Shown here one piece after another: positions 1,130-18,797 of a DNA stretch of 34,275 bases. A program made the translations under genes and the position numbers. Numbering within the stretch: the first letter of the stretch is position 1; every line of letters begins with the position of its first letter. This DNA comes from Candidatus Fermentithermobacillaceae bacterium (GTDB lineage: Bacteria > Bacillota > Sulfobacillia > Fermentithermobacillales > Fermentithermobacillaceae): positions 1 to 34,275 of the forward strand of contig DUUV01000009.1 in the NCBI GenBank assembly GCA_012841375.1. The letters are read 5' to 3'. The notes beneath the pieces are model-generated. The model worked only from the letters and a program-made list of their open reading frames with translations. It was not told where the DNA came from and did not search any database.

Positions 1130-2167
1130 ATGCCGGTTGACAAGCGGCGGAGCCGCATCCGGCTCGGGGCCTATAGCGTGGGATTCTTTCTCCTTCTCTG
1201 TCTCGCGGCGGTGTCTCTCGTGTCCTACCTCTCTTCATGTCCCCTTCCCGAGACGGCGGGGCCGGTTACGGTAGTCGTCGAACCGGGGATGTCCACGCGG
1301 GACGTCGCTGCGCTTCTCAAGGACCACGGGCTCATAAGGAACGAGCTATTCTTCAGGGCTCTCGCGAGGGTCATGAGAGCCGACGGCTGGATCCAGTCCG
1401 GCGAGTACAGCTTTGAGCCCGGCATTTACGCTTATGATTTGTTGGATAGCCTGGTAGAGGGGCGAGTGATCTACTACACGCTCACTGTCCGTGAGGGGCT
1501 CGCACTGGATGATATCGCGCGTCTGGTCGAAGAGAGGGGGTTCGGCTCAAGGGATGCCTTTCTCGAGGCCGCCTCGGACAAGTCCCTGGCGCCTGAGTAT
1601 GTCCCTGCCGAGTATCTGGATTCCGCGAAAGCGCCTCTGGAGGGATACCTCTTCCCGGACACTTACTATATCCGCAAAGGCATGACTGAAAGGGAACTGG
1701 TAGTGATGATGGTCAAACGCTTGGAGCAGGTGTTCAGCAAGGAGCTCCGAGAAAAGGCCGCTCAAGTGAACCTTACCCCCCACGAGGCCGCGACTCTGGC
1801 CTCCATCGTGGAGCGAGAAGCACAGACGGCCTCCGAGAGGCCTATCATCGCGGCGGTCTACATGAATCGCCTGAGGATCGGCATGAAACTGGACGCCGAC
1901 CCGACCGTACTCTACGCGTTGGGGAAACCTCCTGATGCCACGGTTCTCTGGAAAGACCTCGAGGTGGACTCTCCCTACAATACTTACAGGAACCCCGGGC
2001 TCCCGCCGGGGCCGATCGGAAACTTCGGGAAGGCCAGCCTAGAGGCGGTCCTTGCCCCCGATGATGTCGACTACCTCTATTTTGTGGCCAAGAACGACGG
2101 CACCCACGCTTTCGCCCGTACCCTGGCTGAACATAACGCCAACTGCGCTACCTACCAAGGACGCTGA
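1130..2167 (+). CDS. mltG: Endolytic murein transglycosylase MltG
   Basis: A 345-residue protein of the YceG/MltG family, which cleaves nascent glycan strands at the membrane and is thought to set their length. Seen: a short basic N terminus, one membrane segment at about residues 13-35, a LysM-like region with 'VVEPGMSTRDVAALL', and the catalytic domain with TLASIVEREAQ (catalytic Glu228 by comparison with the E. coli enzyme), YMNRLRIGMKLDADPTVLYA, and the C-terminal GPIGNFGKASLEA and YFVAKNDGTHAFA motifs. The ATG at 1130 follows GAGGAGG at 1117-1123. An in-frame TTG at 1115 lies inside the ribosome binding site and is unlikely. Confidence 0.96.
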   Translation: MPVDKRRSRIRLGAYSVGFFLLLCLAAVSLVSYLSSCPLPETAGPVTVVVEPGMSTRDVAALLKDHGLIRNELFFRALARVMRADGWIQSGEYSFEPGIYAYDLLDSLVEGRVIYYTLTVREGLALDDIARLVEERGFGSRDAFLEAASDKSLAPEYVPAEYLDSAKAPLEGYLFPDTYYIRKGMTERELVVMMVKRLEQVFSKELREKAAQVNLTPHEAATLASIVEREAQTASERPIIAAVYMNRLRIGMKLDADPTVLYALGKPPDATVLWKDLEVDSPYNTYRNPGLPPGPIGNFGKASLEAVLAPDDVDYLYFVAKNDGTHAFARTLAEHNANCATYQGR

Positions 2168-2196
2168 ATAACCGCATCCCTTCTTCACGCATTCTA
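2165..2196 (+). promoter_or_regulatory. Candidate sigma-G promoter for sleB-ypeB
   Basis: TGAATA at 2165-2170, overlapping the mltG stop codon, is followed after 19 bases by CATTCTA at 2190-2196. This matches the forespore sigma-G consensus (TGAATA, 17-18 bases, CATACTA) except for one -10 base and one extra spacer base. In B. subtilis sleB and ypeB are made in the forespore, which fits. The rest of the 115-base gap up to sleB shows no terminator or other feature that I can support. Confidence 0.5.
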
Positions 2197-2282: not shown

Positions 2283-2741
2283 TTGAGGACCAAAGCCCTC
2301 GCTTTCCTTTGCGCCGCAGTCTTTGTATTTCTGTCAGTCTCTCTCTCCGCCGACATGCCAAGGTGCGTTGCCGCACCTCAGAGCTGGTATGACGAGTACG
2401 AGCTTCTCGCCCGGGTCATCATGGGCGAAGCCACGGGAGAGCCTTTTACGGGAATGGTCGCTGTGGGCGCAGTCATCATCAACCGGACCAAAGATCCCGC
2501 GTTTCCGCCTACGCTTGCGGGCGTCATCTACGACCCCGACGCCTTTGAGTCCGTGACAAACGGCCTTATGTGGAGCTCTCAGCCCACGGATGAAATGTAC
2601 AGGGCCGCGGAGCTGGCATTGAACGGGTACGACCCGACCTACGGTTGTACCTTTTTCTGGAACCCATATAAGCCCGTCAGTCCTTGGATATGGTCCAGAC
2701 CCGTAGTGACACAGATTGGCAATCACGTATTCGCGTACTGA
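2283..2741 (+). CDS. sleB: Spore cortex-lytic enzyme SleB-type cell wall hydrolase (catalytic domain only)
   Basis: A 152-residue protein with a signal peptide (about residues 1-30) and the SleB/CwlJ hydrolase domain: 'LLARVIMGEATGEP' with the catalytic Glu49, AVGAVIINR, and a C-terminal IGNHVFAY ending. The family are lytic transglycosylases that degrade cortex peptidoglycan during germination. B. subtilis SleB also has an N-terminal peptidoglycan-binding domain; it is absent here, so this is a minimal form. The TTG start at 2283 is spaced 7 bases from GAGGAAGGG at 2267-2275. ypeB follows by 33 bases, which is the standard sleB-ypeB pair and supports the SleB assignment over CwlJ. Confidence 0.92.
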   Translation: MRTKALAFLCAAVFVFLSVSLSADMPRCVAAPQSWYDEYELLARVIMGEATGEPFTGMVAVGAVIINRTKDPAFPPTLAGVIYDPDAFESVTNGLMWSSQPTDEMYRAAELALNGYDPTYGCTFFWNPYKPVSPWIWSRPVVTQIGNHVFAY

Positions 2742-2774: not shown

Positions 2775-4187
2775 ATGAGGTCACGGACACATAGATGGCT
2801 CTTGTGGGTGTTGGGCGCGGTAGCCGTTCTTGCCCTTGCCTTCGGCCTCGCCCAGTACAGGCAAGCCCAAGCTGCCAAAACCCGCATGCAGAACGCGCAG
2901 CAAAGGGCCTTATTCAACTTGGTCACACACATAGAGAACCTTGAGGCGGGTCTTGCCAAGGCAAGGGGGTCTTCGTCAGCCGGTCAGCAGATCAACTTCC
3001 TGACTTCGAGCTGGCTCAACTGTCAGGCGGCCCGGAGCGACCTGAGCCTGGCAGGAGCGGATGGAGTCGACCTGAGCGGTCCCCGGCGCTTTGTGGCCAC
3101 CGTGGGCGACTACGCCCTTGTGCTCTCACAGAAACTTGCCAGAGGCGAGACGGTTACGCCCGAGGAATGGGCCGAACTCGCTCGCCTTGAGTCGGGTGTC
3201 AAGGAGTTGGCCGGCGTCCTCTCGAGGACGGCGCGTGCGGCCGTCGAGCGGCCCGGAGGCACAAGAGCCCGGCTGGCAGGGCTTACCGAATTGGCGGCTT
3301 CCTTCACGGGTGCCGGAGCCGCGGCGTCGGATTCACTGAACCATGGCTTCTCTGAGATTGACCAGCTTACACAAAGCATCCCGGCCCCGGTTTACGACGG
3401 ACCCTTCTCAGAGAAGAACCTGCAATCGCAGGCGCTGGCGCAACCCGGCGCCCTCATTTCAGATGAGAGAGCCAAGGAGATAGCGCTATCGTTCCTGACC
3501 CCAGGGGAGAGCTTTGAGTCGGTATCGGTAGGTACTGCGGAAGGCACCATACCTTCTTTCCTCATAACCGCCAAAAGGCAGGACGGCACCGAGGTGGCCA
3601 CTACCGTAGCCAAGCAGGGAGGGGCAGTGGTGATGGCGACCGATGCCGCTCCGAGAGGCGCGGGCGCCATGAGTCTGGACGACGCCCGGGCCAAGGCCAT
3701 GGAATTTCTGGAGTCCAAGGGGTTTAAAGGCCTCGAGGAAACGGGATGGCGAAAACGCGGAGCAAACGCAAACAGCGTGGTGTTCGCCTACGTGCCTCAC
3801 ACTGAGGTTTCAGGGCCCGGAGAGAACATCAAGGTGCGCCTCTATCCCGATACCGTGAAAGTCGAGGTTTCACTGGACACGGGGGCCATCGTCTCCTTTG
3901 ACCAGATGAACTACCTAATCACCCACGGACACCCGGGTAGGGTACTCAGGGCTCCCCTGGTTTCGCCGGCCGAAGCCCGGAGGGCGCTCAGGCCCGAAGT
4001 AAAGGTTGAGGGCGAAAGTCCGAGGCTTTGCGTCATCCCCATACTCCCCACGACCGAGGTGATGGCTTGGGAGTTCCGGGTCAGAAACGGCGACGATACC
4101 TACCTTGTCTACATAAACGCCATGACAGGGAAAGAACAGATCGTCTTGCAGCTCATAGAGGACGAATCAGGGGCAATGTCGGTCTAG
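2775..4187 (+). CDS. ypeB: Germination protein YpeB
   Basis: A 470-residue protein with one N-terminal membrane anchor (about residues 9-26), an alpha-helical region with many Ala/Arg/Gln, and a C-terminal half with two or three PepSY-like repeats ('ISDERAKEIALSFL', 'MSLDDARAKAMEFLESKGF', 'VSPAEARRALRPEVK'). YpeB holds SleB at the inner membrane and cortex of the spore and is needed for SleB stability. The ATG at 2775 is preceded by GAGAGGTG. Length is close to B. subtilis YpeB (about 450). Coexpressed with sleB from the promoter upstream of that gene, by inference. Confidence 0.93.
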   Translation: MRSRTHRWLLWVLGAVAVLALAFGLAQYRQAQAAKTRMQNAQQRALFNLVTHIENLEAGLAKARGSSSAGQQINFLTSSWLNCQAARSDLSLAGADGVDLSGPRRFVATVGDYALVLSQKLARGETVTPEEWAELARLESGVKELAGVLSRTARAAVERPGGTRARLAGLTELAASFTGAGAAASDSLNHGFSEIDQLTQSIPAPVYDGPFSEKNLQSQALAQPGALISDERAKEIALSFLTPGESFESVSVGTAEGTIPSFLITAKRQDGTEVATTVAKQGGAVVMATDAAPRGAGAMSLDDARAKAMEFLESKGFKGLEETGWRKRGANANSVVFAYVPHTEVSGPGENIKVRLYPDTVKVEVSLDTGAIVSFDQMNYLITHGHPGRVLRAPLVSPAEARRALRPEVKVEGESPRLCVIPILPTTEVMAWEFRVRNGDDTYLVYINAMTGKEQIVLQLIEDESGAMSV

Positions 4188-4193
4188 AGCGCT

Positions 4194-4224
4194 GGAATAC
4201 ACGCAAAACATGAGTGACATTCTA
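4194..4224 (+). promoter_or_regulatory. Candidate sigma-G promoter for the coat protein pair
   Basis: GGAATA at 4194-4199 and CATTCTA at 4218-4224 are separated by 18 bases. This fits the sigma-G consensus with one mismatch in each box. The -10 box is identical to that of the candidate promoter before sleB. A transcript starting near 4231 would carry the AAAGGAGGTGG ribosome binding site at 4237-4246 almost at its 5' end. Confidence 0.5.
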
Positions 4225-4249: not shown

Positions 4250-4435
4250 GTGTTGCAGCTCACCCAGACCGAGGCGTGGTACCTTGGAGAGTCCATTAAG
4301 GGTGAGACTCTAATGTCGCAGAAGCTCACGTCCTACAGGCAAATGGCCCAAGACCCCGAACTGAGGGCGCTCATAGAAAACCTGGAGCGGTCGTGTGAGC
4401 GACACTTGAGCCTCTTATCAAGTCACGTGAAGTGA
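4250..4435 (+). CDS. Small CotF-associated spore coat-like protein
   Basis: A 61-residue, mostly helical protein: 'LQLTQTEAWYLGESIKGE', then a helix with SYRQMAQDPELRALIENLE and a His-containing end. Short proteins of this pattern are commonly encoded just before CotF-type coat genes in spore formers and look like a single ferritin-like helical hairpin related to the CotF domain. No function is established. The GTG at 4250 is chosen because AAAGGAGGTGG at 4237-4246 is ideally placed; a TTG directly after it (4253) is the alternative. The CotF-like gene starts 23 bases downstream, so the two are probably cotranscribed. Confidence 0.75.
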   Translation: MLQLTQTEAWYLGESIKGETLMSQKLTSYRQMAQDPELRALIENLERSCERHLSLLSSHVK

Positions 4436-4458
4436 GGCAACAGGGGGCGGTCTAGAAC

Positions 4459-5724
4459 GTGTCTGAGATGATGGGATCATCCGGTCGGAGATCGATGACC
4501 GACCGGGAAATTGCAGAAGACCTGCTGGCGGGGCAGAAGTATCTGTCCAACTACTACTACGCGCCCGCGATCCTCGAAGCGGGCGATCCCGGACTGCGTT
4601 CAGCCTTTCAAGAAGCGCACGCCGGCGCAACCTCGGCGGCCAAGAGTGTTTTTGACTACCTGCAATCCAAGGGATGGTATCAGGTCCGGAAGGCTGATCA
4701 AGAGGACATGGCCGATCTACGCAACGCGGTGACTGAGTCAAAGCAAGTCGTGAACACCAAGGACAACATGGGAGGAAACAACGTGAGCATGAACCAAGGT
4801 CAGATGGGCTGGACCGGAACCCAGCACGGTGAGGGGCAGAGCGGGTTTGGCCCGTCCAGCATGAGCCAGGGGGCCCGTTGGGGCGGTGAACCAAGCTGGA
4901 TGTCCGGAAGCGGCGGGCAGTTCCAGGGGGCGCAGCAGCAAGGAAATATCCCTCAGTGGACCCAGGGAAGCTTCGGACCCCAGACGAGTTTCGGCAGCCG
5001 TCAGGGAACCGTAGGGGGAACCGTAGGGGGAACGGGCTGGACCGGTACTCAGTACGGTGAGGGGCAGAGCGGGTTTGGCCCGTCCAGCATGAGCCAGGGG
5101 GCCCGTTGGGGCGGTGAACCAAGCTGGATGTCCGGAAGCGGCGGGCAGTTCCAGAGGGCGCAGCAGCAAGGAAATATCCCTCAGTGGACCCAGGGAAGCT
5201 TTGGACCCCAGACGAGTTTCGGCAGCCGTCAGGGAACCGTAGGCGGAACGGGATGGACCGGTACTCAGTACGGTGAAGGACAAAGCGGATTTGGTCCATC
5301 CAGTCTTGGTCAGGGAGCCCGTTGGGGTGGCGAACCCAGCTGGAGCACCTCCTTCGGCGGTCAGCACCAAGGGCAAGGCATGAATCTCCCGAACTGGGCC
5401 AGAGGCGGGTTCGGCGGGGCGCAGAGCGGTCCCGGGCAAGGACAGTATTTCTCCGCCATGCAGCAGGGCTTCGGCGGGCCCCAGCAGGGTCTAGGACAGC
5501 AGGGCCTAGGTCAGCAAGGTCTTGGCCAGCAGGGGTCACATGTCTGGAGGAGCTCCATTGAGACGGGAGGCGGAGGTTGGACCGGCACCCAAGCAGGTGA
5601 AGGCCAGAGCGGGTTTGGCCCGTCCAGTCTTGGACACTACGGCACGGGTACTTGGCAACAGGGTTCTGCGCTAGGGCGCCAGAACTGGCAGCAGGGCGGC
5701 CAGGGCAACTGGCAGAGCCAGTAG
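4459..5724 (+). CDS. CotF-type spore coat protein with Gly/Gln/Trp-rich repeat tail
   Basis: 421 residues in two parts. Residues about 14-98 form a CotF-like helical domain ('MTDREIAEDLLAGQKYLSNY', later 'SKGWYQVRKADQEDM'). Residues about 105-421 are low-complexity, rich in Gly, Gln, Ser and Trp, with four copies of GWTGTQ-x-GEGQSGFGPSS at DNA positions 4807, 5035, 5251 and 5575, and a GLGQQ tract at about 5482-5535. Known CotF proteins are about 100-170 residues, so the tail is a large addition. The GTG start at 4459 has GGGGG at 4443-4447; ATGs at 4468 and 4471 are alternatives. Role inferred: structural coat or outer-layer protein. A strong terminator follows. The tail has no predicted catalytic motif and lacks cysteine. 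Confidence 0.8.
   Translation: MSEMMGSSGRRSMTDREIAEDLLAGQKYLSNYYYAPAILEAGDPGLRSAFQEAHAGATSAAKSVFDYLQSKGWYQVRKADQEDMADLRNAVTESKQVVNTKDNMGGNNVSMNQGQMGWTGTQHGEGQSGFGPSSMSQGARWGGEPSWMSGSGGQFQGAQQQGNIPQWTQGSFGPQTSFGSRQGTVGGTVGGTGWTGTQYGEGQSGFGPSSMSQGARWGGEPSWMSGSGGQFQRAQQQGNIPQWTQGSFGPQTSFGSRQGTVGGTGWTGTQYGEGQSGFGPSSLGQGARWGGEPSWSTSFGGQHQGQGMNLPNWARGGFGGAQSGPGQGQYFSAMQQGFGGPQQGLGQQGLGQQGLGQQGSHVWRSSIETGGGGWTGTQAGEGQSGFGPSSLGHYGTGTWQQGSALGRQNWQQGGQGNWQSQ
4807..5631 (+). repeat. Intragenic tandem repeats in the CotF-like gene
   Basis: Unit 1 (4807-5034, 228 bases) and unit 2 (5035-5250, 216 bases) are nearly identical at the DNA level; unit 1 is longer by one extra 12-base copy coding for VGGT at about 5009-5032. 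Unit 3 (5251-5574) keeps only its first third and then diverges into QG-rich sequence. Unit 4 begins at 5575 and is truncated. The near identity of units 1 and 2, including silent positions, points to recent duplication or gene conversion. Confidence 0.9.
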
Positions 5725-5748: not shown

Positions 5749-5780
5749 AAAAGGGGTAGCGTGTCGCCTACCCCTTTTCC
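5749..5780 (+). terminator. Rho-independent terminator after the CotF-like gene
   Basis: A perfect 11-base-pair stem, AAAAGGGGTAG at 5749-5759 with CTACCCCTTTT at 5768-5778, and an 8-base loop. The T tract is part of the stem. It separates the coat operon from galT. Confidence 0.85.
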
Positions 5781-11908: not shown

Positions 11909-12610
11909 GTGGTTAACGCGCTTCACGGCATCGCGCAGCTAATCATTAAGGTCTTTGAGGCCTGTCTCGGTTACGTAGGTGGCAACAACTTCCCGCACCC
12001 GCTCTCGGAAGAGGAAGAAAGAAACTGCCTGGCAGGAGTGCAGAGAGGAGATATCGTCAGCAGGAACACTCTTGTGGAGCACAACCTTCGCCTTGTCGCC
12101 CACATTGTGAAGAAGTTTGACCCCAACCCGCAAGACATAGAGGACATGATCTCAATAGGAAGCATCGGACTGGTGAAAGCCATCAACACCTATCAGCTGG
12201 ACAAAGGCACCAGGCTGGCCACTTACGCGTCCAAATGCATAGAGAACGAAATCCTCATGCACCTCAGGGCAACCAAGAACGACAAGACCGAACTCCATCT
12301 TTTTGACCCCTTGTCGTCCGAAGACGATGACGGCGAAGTCTCCTACATCGACCTTGTGAGAGACGATGGGGGAGACGTGGCCGAAGTCGTCACGGCCAAA
12401 GTGCAGGCCGAAAGCGTTCTTTCCAGGTTGGCCGTCCTTGATGAGAAAGAGAGAGAAGTCCTGGAGCTAAGGTATGGGCTATCGGGAAAATCCCAGAAGA
12501 CCCAGCGGGAGATCGCGAGGTTACTGGGGATATCGAGGTCCTACGTAAGCCGCATAGAAAAGAGGGCACTCTCCAAACTGGCAAAGGCCTGTCAGGTCTT
12601 CGTCCAGTAA
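11909..12610 (+). CDS. sigK: RNA polymerase sporulation sigma factor SigK, uninterrupted
   Basis: A 233-residue sigma-70 family protein. Region 2 contains 'RNTLVEHNLRLVAHIVKKFD' and 'LATYASKCIENEILMHLRA'; region 4.2 contains 'TQREIARLLGISRSYVSRIE' followed by KRAL. These match SigK (late mother cell) over SigE. A hydrophobic N-terminal segment of about 20 residues ('IAQLIIKVFEACLGYV') corresponds to the pro-sequence that SpoIVFB removes in B. subtilis. The gene is continuous, with no skin-type element. The GTG start at 11909 has GGAGGG at 11894-11899. It would direct late coat and mother-cell genes. Confidence 0.93.
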   Translation: MVNALHGIAQLIIKVFEACLGYVGGNNFPHPLSEEEERNCLAGVQRGDIVSRNTLVEHNLRLVAHIVKKFDPNPQDIEDMISIGSIGLVKAINTYQLDKGTRLATYASKCIENEILMHLRATKNDKTELHLFDPLSSEDDDGEVSYIDLVRDDGGDVAEVVTAKVQAESVLSRLAVLDEKEREVLELRYGLSGKSQKTQREIARLLGISRSYVSRIEKRALSKLAKACQVFVQ

Positions 12611-13249: not shown

Positions 13250-13424
13250 AGGGGTCCTGTAGATCCCCTAGGCCTGGCTGGCAAGTGCCCTCCGAGCGAC
13301 CGGCAGGGGATGAGCGCCCCGGAGTTGCCTGACAAAATACCCCAACATCAGCACTTCCTCTTATTTCACGCTCCACTTTTCCGATGATCACCTTGTGTAT
13401 CCATCCTCGCAGGGAGGCGGGGCC

Positions 13425-14111
13425 ATGCTCAATGTATTAGTCACTTATGAAAAACCTTCTTGGCAGCGGAGTATAGAGTCGTTCCTATCCAGACAAAACT
13501 ACGTGTGCGCGTCGTACACCCCCCTCGGGCTTGGCCACAGGAAGTTGCCTCGCGACAGGTTCGATGTGGTAGTTGTCGAGTGCGGGCGCGACAAGACCAG
13601 GCTGCGAGACTCGCTTGCCTCGCTCAGGAGGTCCTTTCCCCAGTCCAGGATCGTCCTGGTCTTGGAGAGATTGGGCATCAACGATTTCGCCTTCGGCTAC
13701 GGTATGGGGATCAGCGCCGTGCTGGATGAAGCGGCCAGTCCCGACCAGCTGTTGGCTTCCCTCGACGCCGCGGTCAGAGGAGACCTCTACGTCGCGGGTT
13801 CCATCCTGAAAAAGCGCGGGTCCCAGTATTCTGAGATGGTCTATGATGACGCTTCCCCTCCGGACCGGCTGAGCGAACGGGAGATGGAGGTCTTGTCCCT
13901 GGTGGCTCGGGGGTTCACCAACAAGGCTATCGCGAAGAGTCTCTACATCAGCGAGAAGACCGTGAAAAACCATTTGTACAGCATTTTTCGGAAAATCGGA
14001 GTTTCGGACAGGACCAAGGCGGCGCTCTACGCAGTCAAGAGTCTTTCGTCCCAGAAAAATGGGCCGTACGCCCCTCTTGAGGTTTTCTACGAGATCGATG
14101 AACCTCAATGA
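13425..14111 (+). CDS. NarL/LuxR-type regulator with degenerate receiver domain
   Basis: 228 residues. Residues about 1-120 have the beta/alpha pattern of a response-regulator receiver, but key residues differ: the acidic pair of strand 1 is missing (LNVLVTYEK), the phospho-acceptor Asp position at the end of strand 3 is Glu52 (VVVVECG), and the strand 5 Lys is Asp101 (AVLDEAAS). Residues about 150-203 form an intact LuxR helix-turn-helix: 'LSEREMEVLSLVARGFTNKA' then ISEKTVKNHLYSIFRKIGV. It is probably a phosphorylation-independent DNA-binding regulator; targets are unknown. No histidine kinase gene is adjacent. The ATG at 13425 has AGGGAGG at 13411-13417. A strong terminator follows about 60 bases after the stop. 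Confidence 0.85.
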   Translation: MLNVLVTYEKPSWQRSIESFLSRQNYVCASYTPLGLGHRKLPRDRFDVVVVECGRDKTRLRDSLASLRRSFPQSRIVLVLERLGINDFAFGYGMGISAVLDEAASPDQLLASLDAAVRGDLYVAGSILKKRGSQYSEMVYDDASPPDRLSEREMEVLSLVARGFTNKAIAKSLYISEKTVKNHLYSIFRKIGVSDRTKAALYAVKSLSSQKNGPYAPLEVFYEIDEPQ

Positions 14112-18720: not shown

Positions 18721-18747
18721 TCTCTTAAGAGCAATATTTCTGTACAC

Positions 18748-18797
18748 CAAACATTCTAGCATCAAACATTCTAGCACCTAACATCTCGTAGCGGCAA
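18748..18797 (-). promoter_or_regulatory. Candidate MATE promoter with duplicated extended -10 element
   Basis: On the minus strand TTGCCG (18797-18792) is followed after 18 bases by TAGAAT (18773-18768), preceded by TG at the extended -10 position. The 14-base segment containing TGCTAGAATGTTTG is repeated exactly 15 bases further on (18761-18748), giving a second TGCTAGAAT. The first box with its -35 makes a plausible sigma-A promoter. Confidence 0.45.

Follow-up and report, generated by a model that had tools for sequence, protein, structure and literature searches.

A stretch of 34,275 nucleotides from an uncultured, thermophilic Candidatus Fermentithermobacillaceae bacterium (contig DUUV01000009.1 of assembly GCA_012841375.1; this whole stretch is referred to here as the window) carries a gene for a 421-residue protein in which a CotF-family domain is followed by a long tail rich in glycine, glutamine and tryptophan. 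The best reading of this protein is that of a lineage-specific variant of the known CotF family, combining a scaffold that appears to be split over two adjacent genes with a tail of the sticker-and-spacer type. We further propose, at about even chances, that it is a spore structural protein made in the forespore, with a split CotF base and a tail of tryptophan stickers, and that it lies inside the spore rather than in the outer coat.

In the mechanism that we envisage, the product of a neighbouring 60-residue open reading frame (ORF) would pair with the CotF half as two helical hairpins to build a ferritin-like bundle, and this bundle would act as a folded, oligomerising base that gives the tail its valency. 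The tail at the C-terminus is envisaged as almost uncharged and intrinsically disordered, with regularly spaced Trp and Phe stickers (WTGTQxGEGQSGxGPSS...WGGxPSW, then NxPxW) separated by Gly/Gln spacers. During maturation and drying of the spore, non-covalent contacts may join such complexes into a condensed network. Its predicted location is the core or the inner-membrane side of the spore.

The split CotF pair and its distribution

The protein scores 52.2 bits against PF07875, well above the curated Pfam cut-off of 25.7, which places it in the Coat_F family; Coat_F is the only Pfam domain on it and NCBIfam gave no match. No PDB sequence match was found for the CotF halves or for the tail. 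A AGGGGGCGG stretch lies upstream of the GTG start. Immediately 5' of the tailed gene in the loci read is the small ORF, whose start is probably a TTG, as relatives do not preserve the GTG. The small ORF matches the N-terminal half of a two-half CotF paralogue in genome G007 (E 1e-4), and the Coat_F profile weakly recognises its G007 copy (20.4 bits). In this paralogue, which is found in the same genomes, both halves lie in a single chain with a Q/G-rich linker between them. Because the small ORF corresponds to the N-terminal half of this chain, the window appears to encode a CotF protein split over two genes, with the low-complexity region C-terminal; the extra helix that follows the Coat_F domain (GWYxxxxAD....LRNAV...) is, judged from the alignment, a mark of this split-pair subfamily. 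The linker of the paralogue differs widely in length between genera, and one copy with a long Q/G-rich linker (L039 829-1644; G000 contig 65) is cut by the contig end.

A preliminary description of the gene had recognised the CotF-like domain, its fusion to about 315 residues (316 by our count), four GWTGTQxGEGQSGFGPSS repeats, a GLGQQ tract and the lack of cysteine in the tail, all of which we find. The small ORF, the promoter-like element, the terminator-like hairpin, the 31-residue repeat unit and the NxPxW motif were absent from it.

The pair follows sporulation within its order. Tailed-CotF orthologues were detected in 11 of the 14 genomes of the family Ca. Fermentithermobacillaceae. Searching with the 31-residue module of the tail and with the small partner brought the count for the order Ca. 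Fermentithermobacillales to 14 of 17 genomes: all 14 sporulating genomes and none of the three non-sporulating ones (the small partner was likewise found in 14/17). SigG is above cut-off in 14 of the 17, and Coat_F is present in the genomes with SigG and absent from the three without it. The distribution of SpoIVA and of small acid-soluble spore proteins (SASP) agrees with this pattern in the family, and the association with spores that had been suggested earlier is thus borne out. Three genomes (G008, G009 and G010) are without SigG above cut-off, SpoIVA, SASP and Coat_F; they belong to a single genus (g5) of this family, so one loss of sporulation probably explains all these absences. The core of the 31-residue repeat was not found elsewhere in about 540 other genomes, including the class members sampled and the remainder of a phylum sample of 398 genomes.

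Assembly error or frameshift in the repeats was rejected, the architecture being intact in three independent metagenome-assembled genomes (L002-L004) and in the single-contig genome G007. In L002-L004 the gene order is YpeB, small ORF, tailed CotF gene and GalT-like gene, and the records of these loci place the window genome near Candidatus Fermentithermobacillaceae, a family of thermophiles of class DTU015 with predicted sporulation (PMC10215811). A 373-residue ORF on the minus strand (4418-5539) was rejected as a real gene given the stops in that frame in relatives; this antisense frame is probably a product of base composition and repeats.

A forespore-type promoter-like element

The case for forespore synthesis begins with the element GAATA-N18-CATTCTA ahead of the two-gene unit. 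Sites of the form GAATA-N17-19-CATNNTA number two in the 34-kb window (starts 2166 and 4195) against 0.02 expected. Among the orthologue loci, some of which are the same gene from two collections, GAATA-N18-[CA]ATNMTA is present in 16/16, at 63-67 nt upstream of the conserved motif start of the small protein and against a background density of 0.012 per 120 nt; across these loci GAATA, AT and TA are invariant and the spacer is variable. In the same genomes, 9/11 scored loci of the main SASP gene have GCATR-N17-CATAATA, the two misses having an over-long reading-frame start. By its likeness to the SASP motif GCATG-N17-CATAATA, and with SigG present, the element resembles a sigma-G promoter, and the CATA of sigma-E/K -10 elements is never present in the sites upstream of the tailed-CotF pair. 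The two-half CotF paralogue had a forespore-type motif in none of 12 loci. Judged by promoter sequence, the mother-cell (sigma-E/K) expression that marks a coat protein in the strict sense does not appear to apply here. No signal peptide or hydrophobic N-terminal stretch is evident in the 421-residue protein, so a forespore product would remain in the forespore, and the protein is probably synthesised and retained there. Taken together, the promoter-like element and the lack of an evident signal peptide make the spore-surface location put forward earlier doubtful and the forespore interior likelier.

The alternative view, held in the preliminary description, is that of an ordinary coat or inner-coat protein, made in the mother cell and recruited by the CotF domain, the tail being self-assembling filler on the spore exterior. 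Repeats of Gly and aromatic residues are typical of extracellular structural proteins, and the Pfam family name itself speaks for a coat. Moreover, Moorella spore coat proteins include CotF relatives (PMC8745062), and a C. difficile gene called cotF is controlled by sigma-K (PMC3789822), a likeness at least in name. Set against this are the forespore-type element without CATA in every orthologue locus and the position of the gene next to SleB-YpeB, which has the same promoter-like motif. We therefore regard a conventional coat role as rather unlikely. The sleB-ypeB operon is described as conserved in a source that also cites forespore expression of SleB (PMC6660665). YraF of B. subtilis is a CotF-family member (PMC3533761) and has been called a forespore-specific sporulation protein (PMC7352945).

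Several observations weigh against a forespore-made, spore-internal protein. A second type of SASP-like gene in the same genomes had no forespore-type motif upstream, and no such motif was found before the CotF pair in G269, G058, G124, G152 and G019. The -10 begins with AAT instead of CAT in genera g2 and g4 and in family f141, a poorer fit to sigma-G. The Moorella relatives count here also, and synthesis in the forespore does not prove a location in the core. AlphaFold2 gave a mean predicted local distance difference test (pLDDT) score of 32 for the full protein and 54.5 for the domain, with low-confidence helices in the domain and no fold for the tail; these models establish neither a helical bundle nor disorder, and an alignment of four rows is no proper test of tail disorder.

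Forespore synthesis may extend beyond this order. In family f36, tailed and tail-less pairs both have GCATA-N18-CATACTA, or a sequence close to it, ahead of the small ORF, and forespore expression of the split-pair CotF branch may thus be old. The CotF family is present in 200 of 249 sampled phylum genomes, and its name puts it under "coat". For its split-pair branch, the promoter evidence points to synthesis in the forespore, and "coat" may there be the wrong compartment. With the forespore as its probable compartment, the window protein holds more interest than a tailed coat protein would.

The repeat tail and its constraint

The tail consists of 28.8% Gly, 17.4% Gln (55 residues) and 5.4% Trp (17 residues), with few Tyr and with Cys, Asp and Lys at zero; aromatic residues make up 11% and charged residues 5%, for a net charge of about +1. 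This composition is consistent with a sticker-and-spacer chain that condenses on concentration and drying. The exact motif GWTGTQ.GEGQSGFGPSS begins at residues 117, 193, 265 and 373, and because three copies run on into ARWGGEPSW (the first three), the true repeat unit by sequence is 31 residues, each followed by a variable spacer with a NIPQW/NLPNW (NxPxW) motif. At the DNA level, a tandem repeat at 4806-5344 has a 228-bp unit in 2.4 copies with 90% identity. Copies 1 and 2 are near-identical over about 228 bp in the window genome. Relatives likewise have about three full units, but their first unit is distinct, which suggests a recent duplication or gene conversion in the window genome; the exact sequence and copy number of units 1 and 2 there rest on a draft assembly.

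It is conceivable that the tail is a neutral, expandable extension without a specific role and that the CotF pair alone matters. Many versions are short and have no tail, the spacers and the GLGQQ tract change rapidly, and the duplication or conversion just described would suit such a view. However, purifying selection is strongest in the modules, weaker in the CotF domain and weakest in the spacers: in orthologue comparisons, the ratio of non-synonymous to synonymous change (pN/pS) was 0.06-0.19, 0.21-0.31 and 0.38-0.58, respectively, with synonymous sites near saturation in some sequence pairs. In addition, 13 of the 31 module columns are invariant across 19 copies from Ca. Fermentithermobacillaceae, a second family retains most of these columns, and every one of the order's 14 sporulating genomes has kept modules. 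A neutral tail is consequently improbable.

Enzymatic crosslinking as the main purpose of the tail, by Gln-Lys isopeptide bonds through the transglutaminase Tgl or by dityrosine, is very improbable: the tail offers 55 Gln and B. subtilis uses Tgl to crosslink spore proteins, but a Tgl homologue was found in 0/14 family genomes with the B. subtilis control detected, making the transglutaminase route unlikely, and the tail is free of Lys and poor in Tyr.

A bolder version of the forespore proposal would have a sigma-G-dependent, spore-internal polymer of split CotF scaffold and Trp-sticker repeats condense, within or around the core of thermophile spores, into a network that resembles a gel or a glass, with aromatic tails added to that scaffold several times independently across Bacillota. 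We hold this extended version to be doubtful.

Table 1. Positions of the gene pair, its sequence features and its neighbours in the window
Feature	Position	Strand	Basis or remark
Second promoter-like motif copy, N19 spacing, before SleB-YpeB genes	2166..2196	+	Conserved in L002-L004
SleB-like cortex hydrolase (neighbour)	2283..2741	+	TIGR02869, 3.5e-48, below curated cut-off
YpeB germination protein (neighbour)	2775..4187	+	Profile match
Sigma-G/F-type promoter-like element of two-gene unit	4195..4224	+	Pattern search
Helical partner, 60-61 aa, weakly DUF3231-like	4250..4435	+	Conserved start probably TTG 4253
CotF half-domain and Gly/Gln/Trp repeat tail protein, 421 aa	4459..5724	+	GTG start; ORF translation, orthologues
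Coat_F domain, aa 14-76	4498..4686	+	PF07875, E 7.4e-14
Extra helix after Coat_F domain	4687..4773	+	Alignment A4; helix H78-106 in low-confidence AlphaFold2 model
Low-complexity tail, aa 106-421 (316 residues)	4774..5721	+	Composition count
31-aa module copy 1	4807..4899	+	Repeat match
31-aa module copy 2	5035..5127	+	Repeat match
31-aa module copy 3	5251..5343	+	Repeat match
GLGQQ tract, 15-bp tandem unit	5482..5534	+	Tandem-repeat detection; not conserved in relatives
Module copy 4, partial, first 21 residues	5575..5637	+	Repeat match
Terminator-like hairpin AAAAGGGGTAG...CTACCCCTTTT	5749..5778	+	Sequence; similar hairpin in L002-L004

Elsewhere in the window, a SigK-like sporulation sigma factor gene (11909-12607) is followed by a regulator with a LuxR/GerE domain (13395-14111), both possible sporulation genes, and a 15-bp tandem repeat CACCAAACATTCTAG (18745-18784, 2.7 copies) lies near ORF start regions on both strands.

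Comparison with known systems

The tail had been called silk-like, and this holds for composition only: spider silk spidroins have GPGQQ-type repeats and are similarly rich in Gly and Gln. In contrast to spidroins, the window tail is without poly-Ala or (GA)n blocks, is Trp-rich and has no sequence match in the PDB, and we do not class it as a silk. Among spore proteins, CotB of B. subtilis lies in the outer coat, is without a CotF domain and has serine-rich repeats phosphorylated by CotH. Low-complexity repeat regions are what the B. subtilis coat proteins CotB and CotG (PMC7821199) share with the window protein.

The closest comparison is with the CotF family itself (PF07875; CotF, YhcQ, YraD, YraF and YusN in B. 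subtilis), which has the domain and a sporulation-linked distribution in common with the window protein. Most versions examined are short, and the 31-residue module is in none examined outside Ca. Fermentithermobacillales. Matches to the domain alignment (A4) occur in 291 of the 398 phylum genomes; many of the matching proteins are short and have a comparable small ORF ahead of them. Split pairs in family f36 (L185-L188), in which a helical ORF of 60-90 residues precedes a CotF ORF of about 75-150 residues, have the same gene order, domain and extra helix and a sigma-G-like promoter before the small ORF but, unlike the window protein, no long tail. The earlier statement that CotF proteins are normally short and tail-less is therefore right for most CotF ORFs elsewhere but too broad, as dissimilar tails occur in at least three other families and the two-half paralogue has its Q/G-rich linker.

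The tail-bearing split pairs build on the same base with an aromatic low-complexity tail. Three of them (L123, L124 and L181; family f36, genus g41) are Gly/Phe-rich, another carries DRPGQDWGGATN repeats (L208, in G058), and that of the class member G269 (L209) is Gly/Tyr-rich with NLPSWAY, the only one sharing the NLPxWA motif with the window. The sequences of all these tails are unlike the window tail, and only the first three pairs showed a forespore-type promoter. The L209 protein (905-2069) has Gly/Tyr repeats GGGYQAGGYGTGYGQNLPSWAYSEPPRRED, its tail sequence being partly N. A different CotF-domain group has long N-terminal repeats (L120 689-1843, MGQQIGGQMGQP; L121 615-1739, minus strand, GWQTGQQTGQQM), indicating that low-complexity arms are not confined to the C-terminal side of the domain. 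The tails measured in other families contain 10-16% aromatic residues and zero Cys, and the recurrence of Gly and aromatic tails on the CotF scaffold in several lineages hints that a spore material which condenses or fills space has been selected for.
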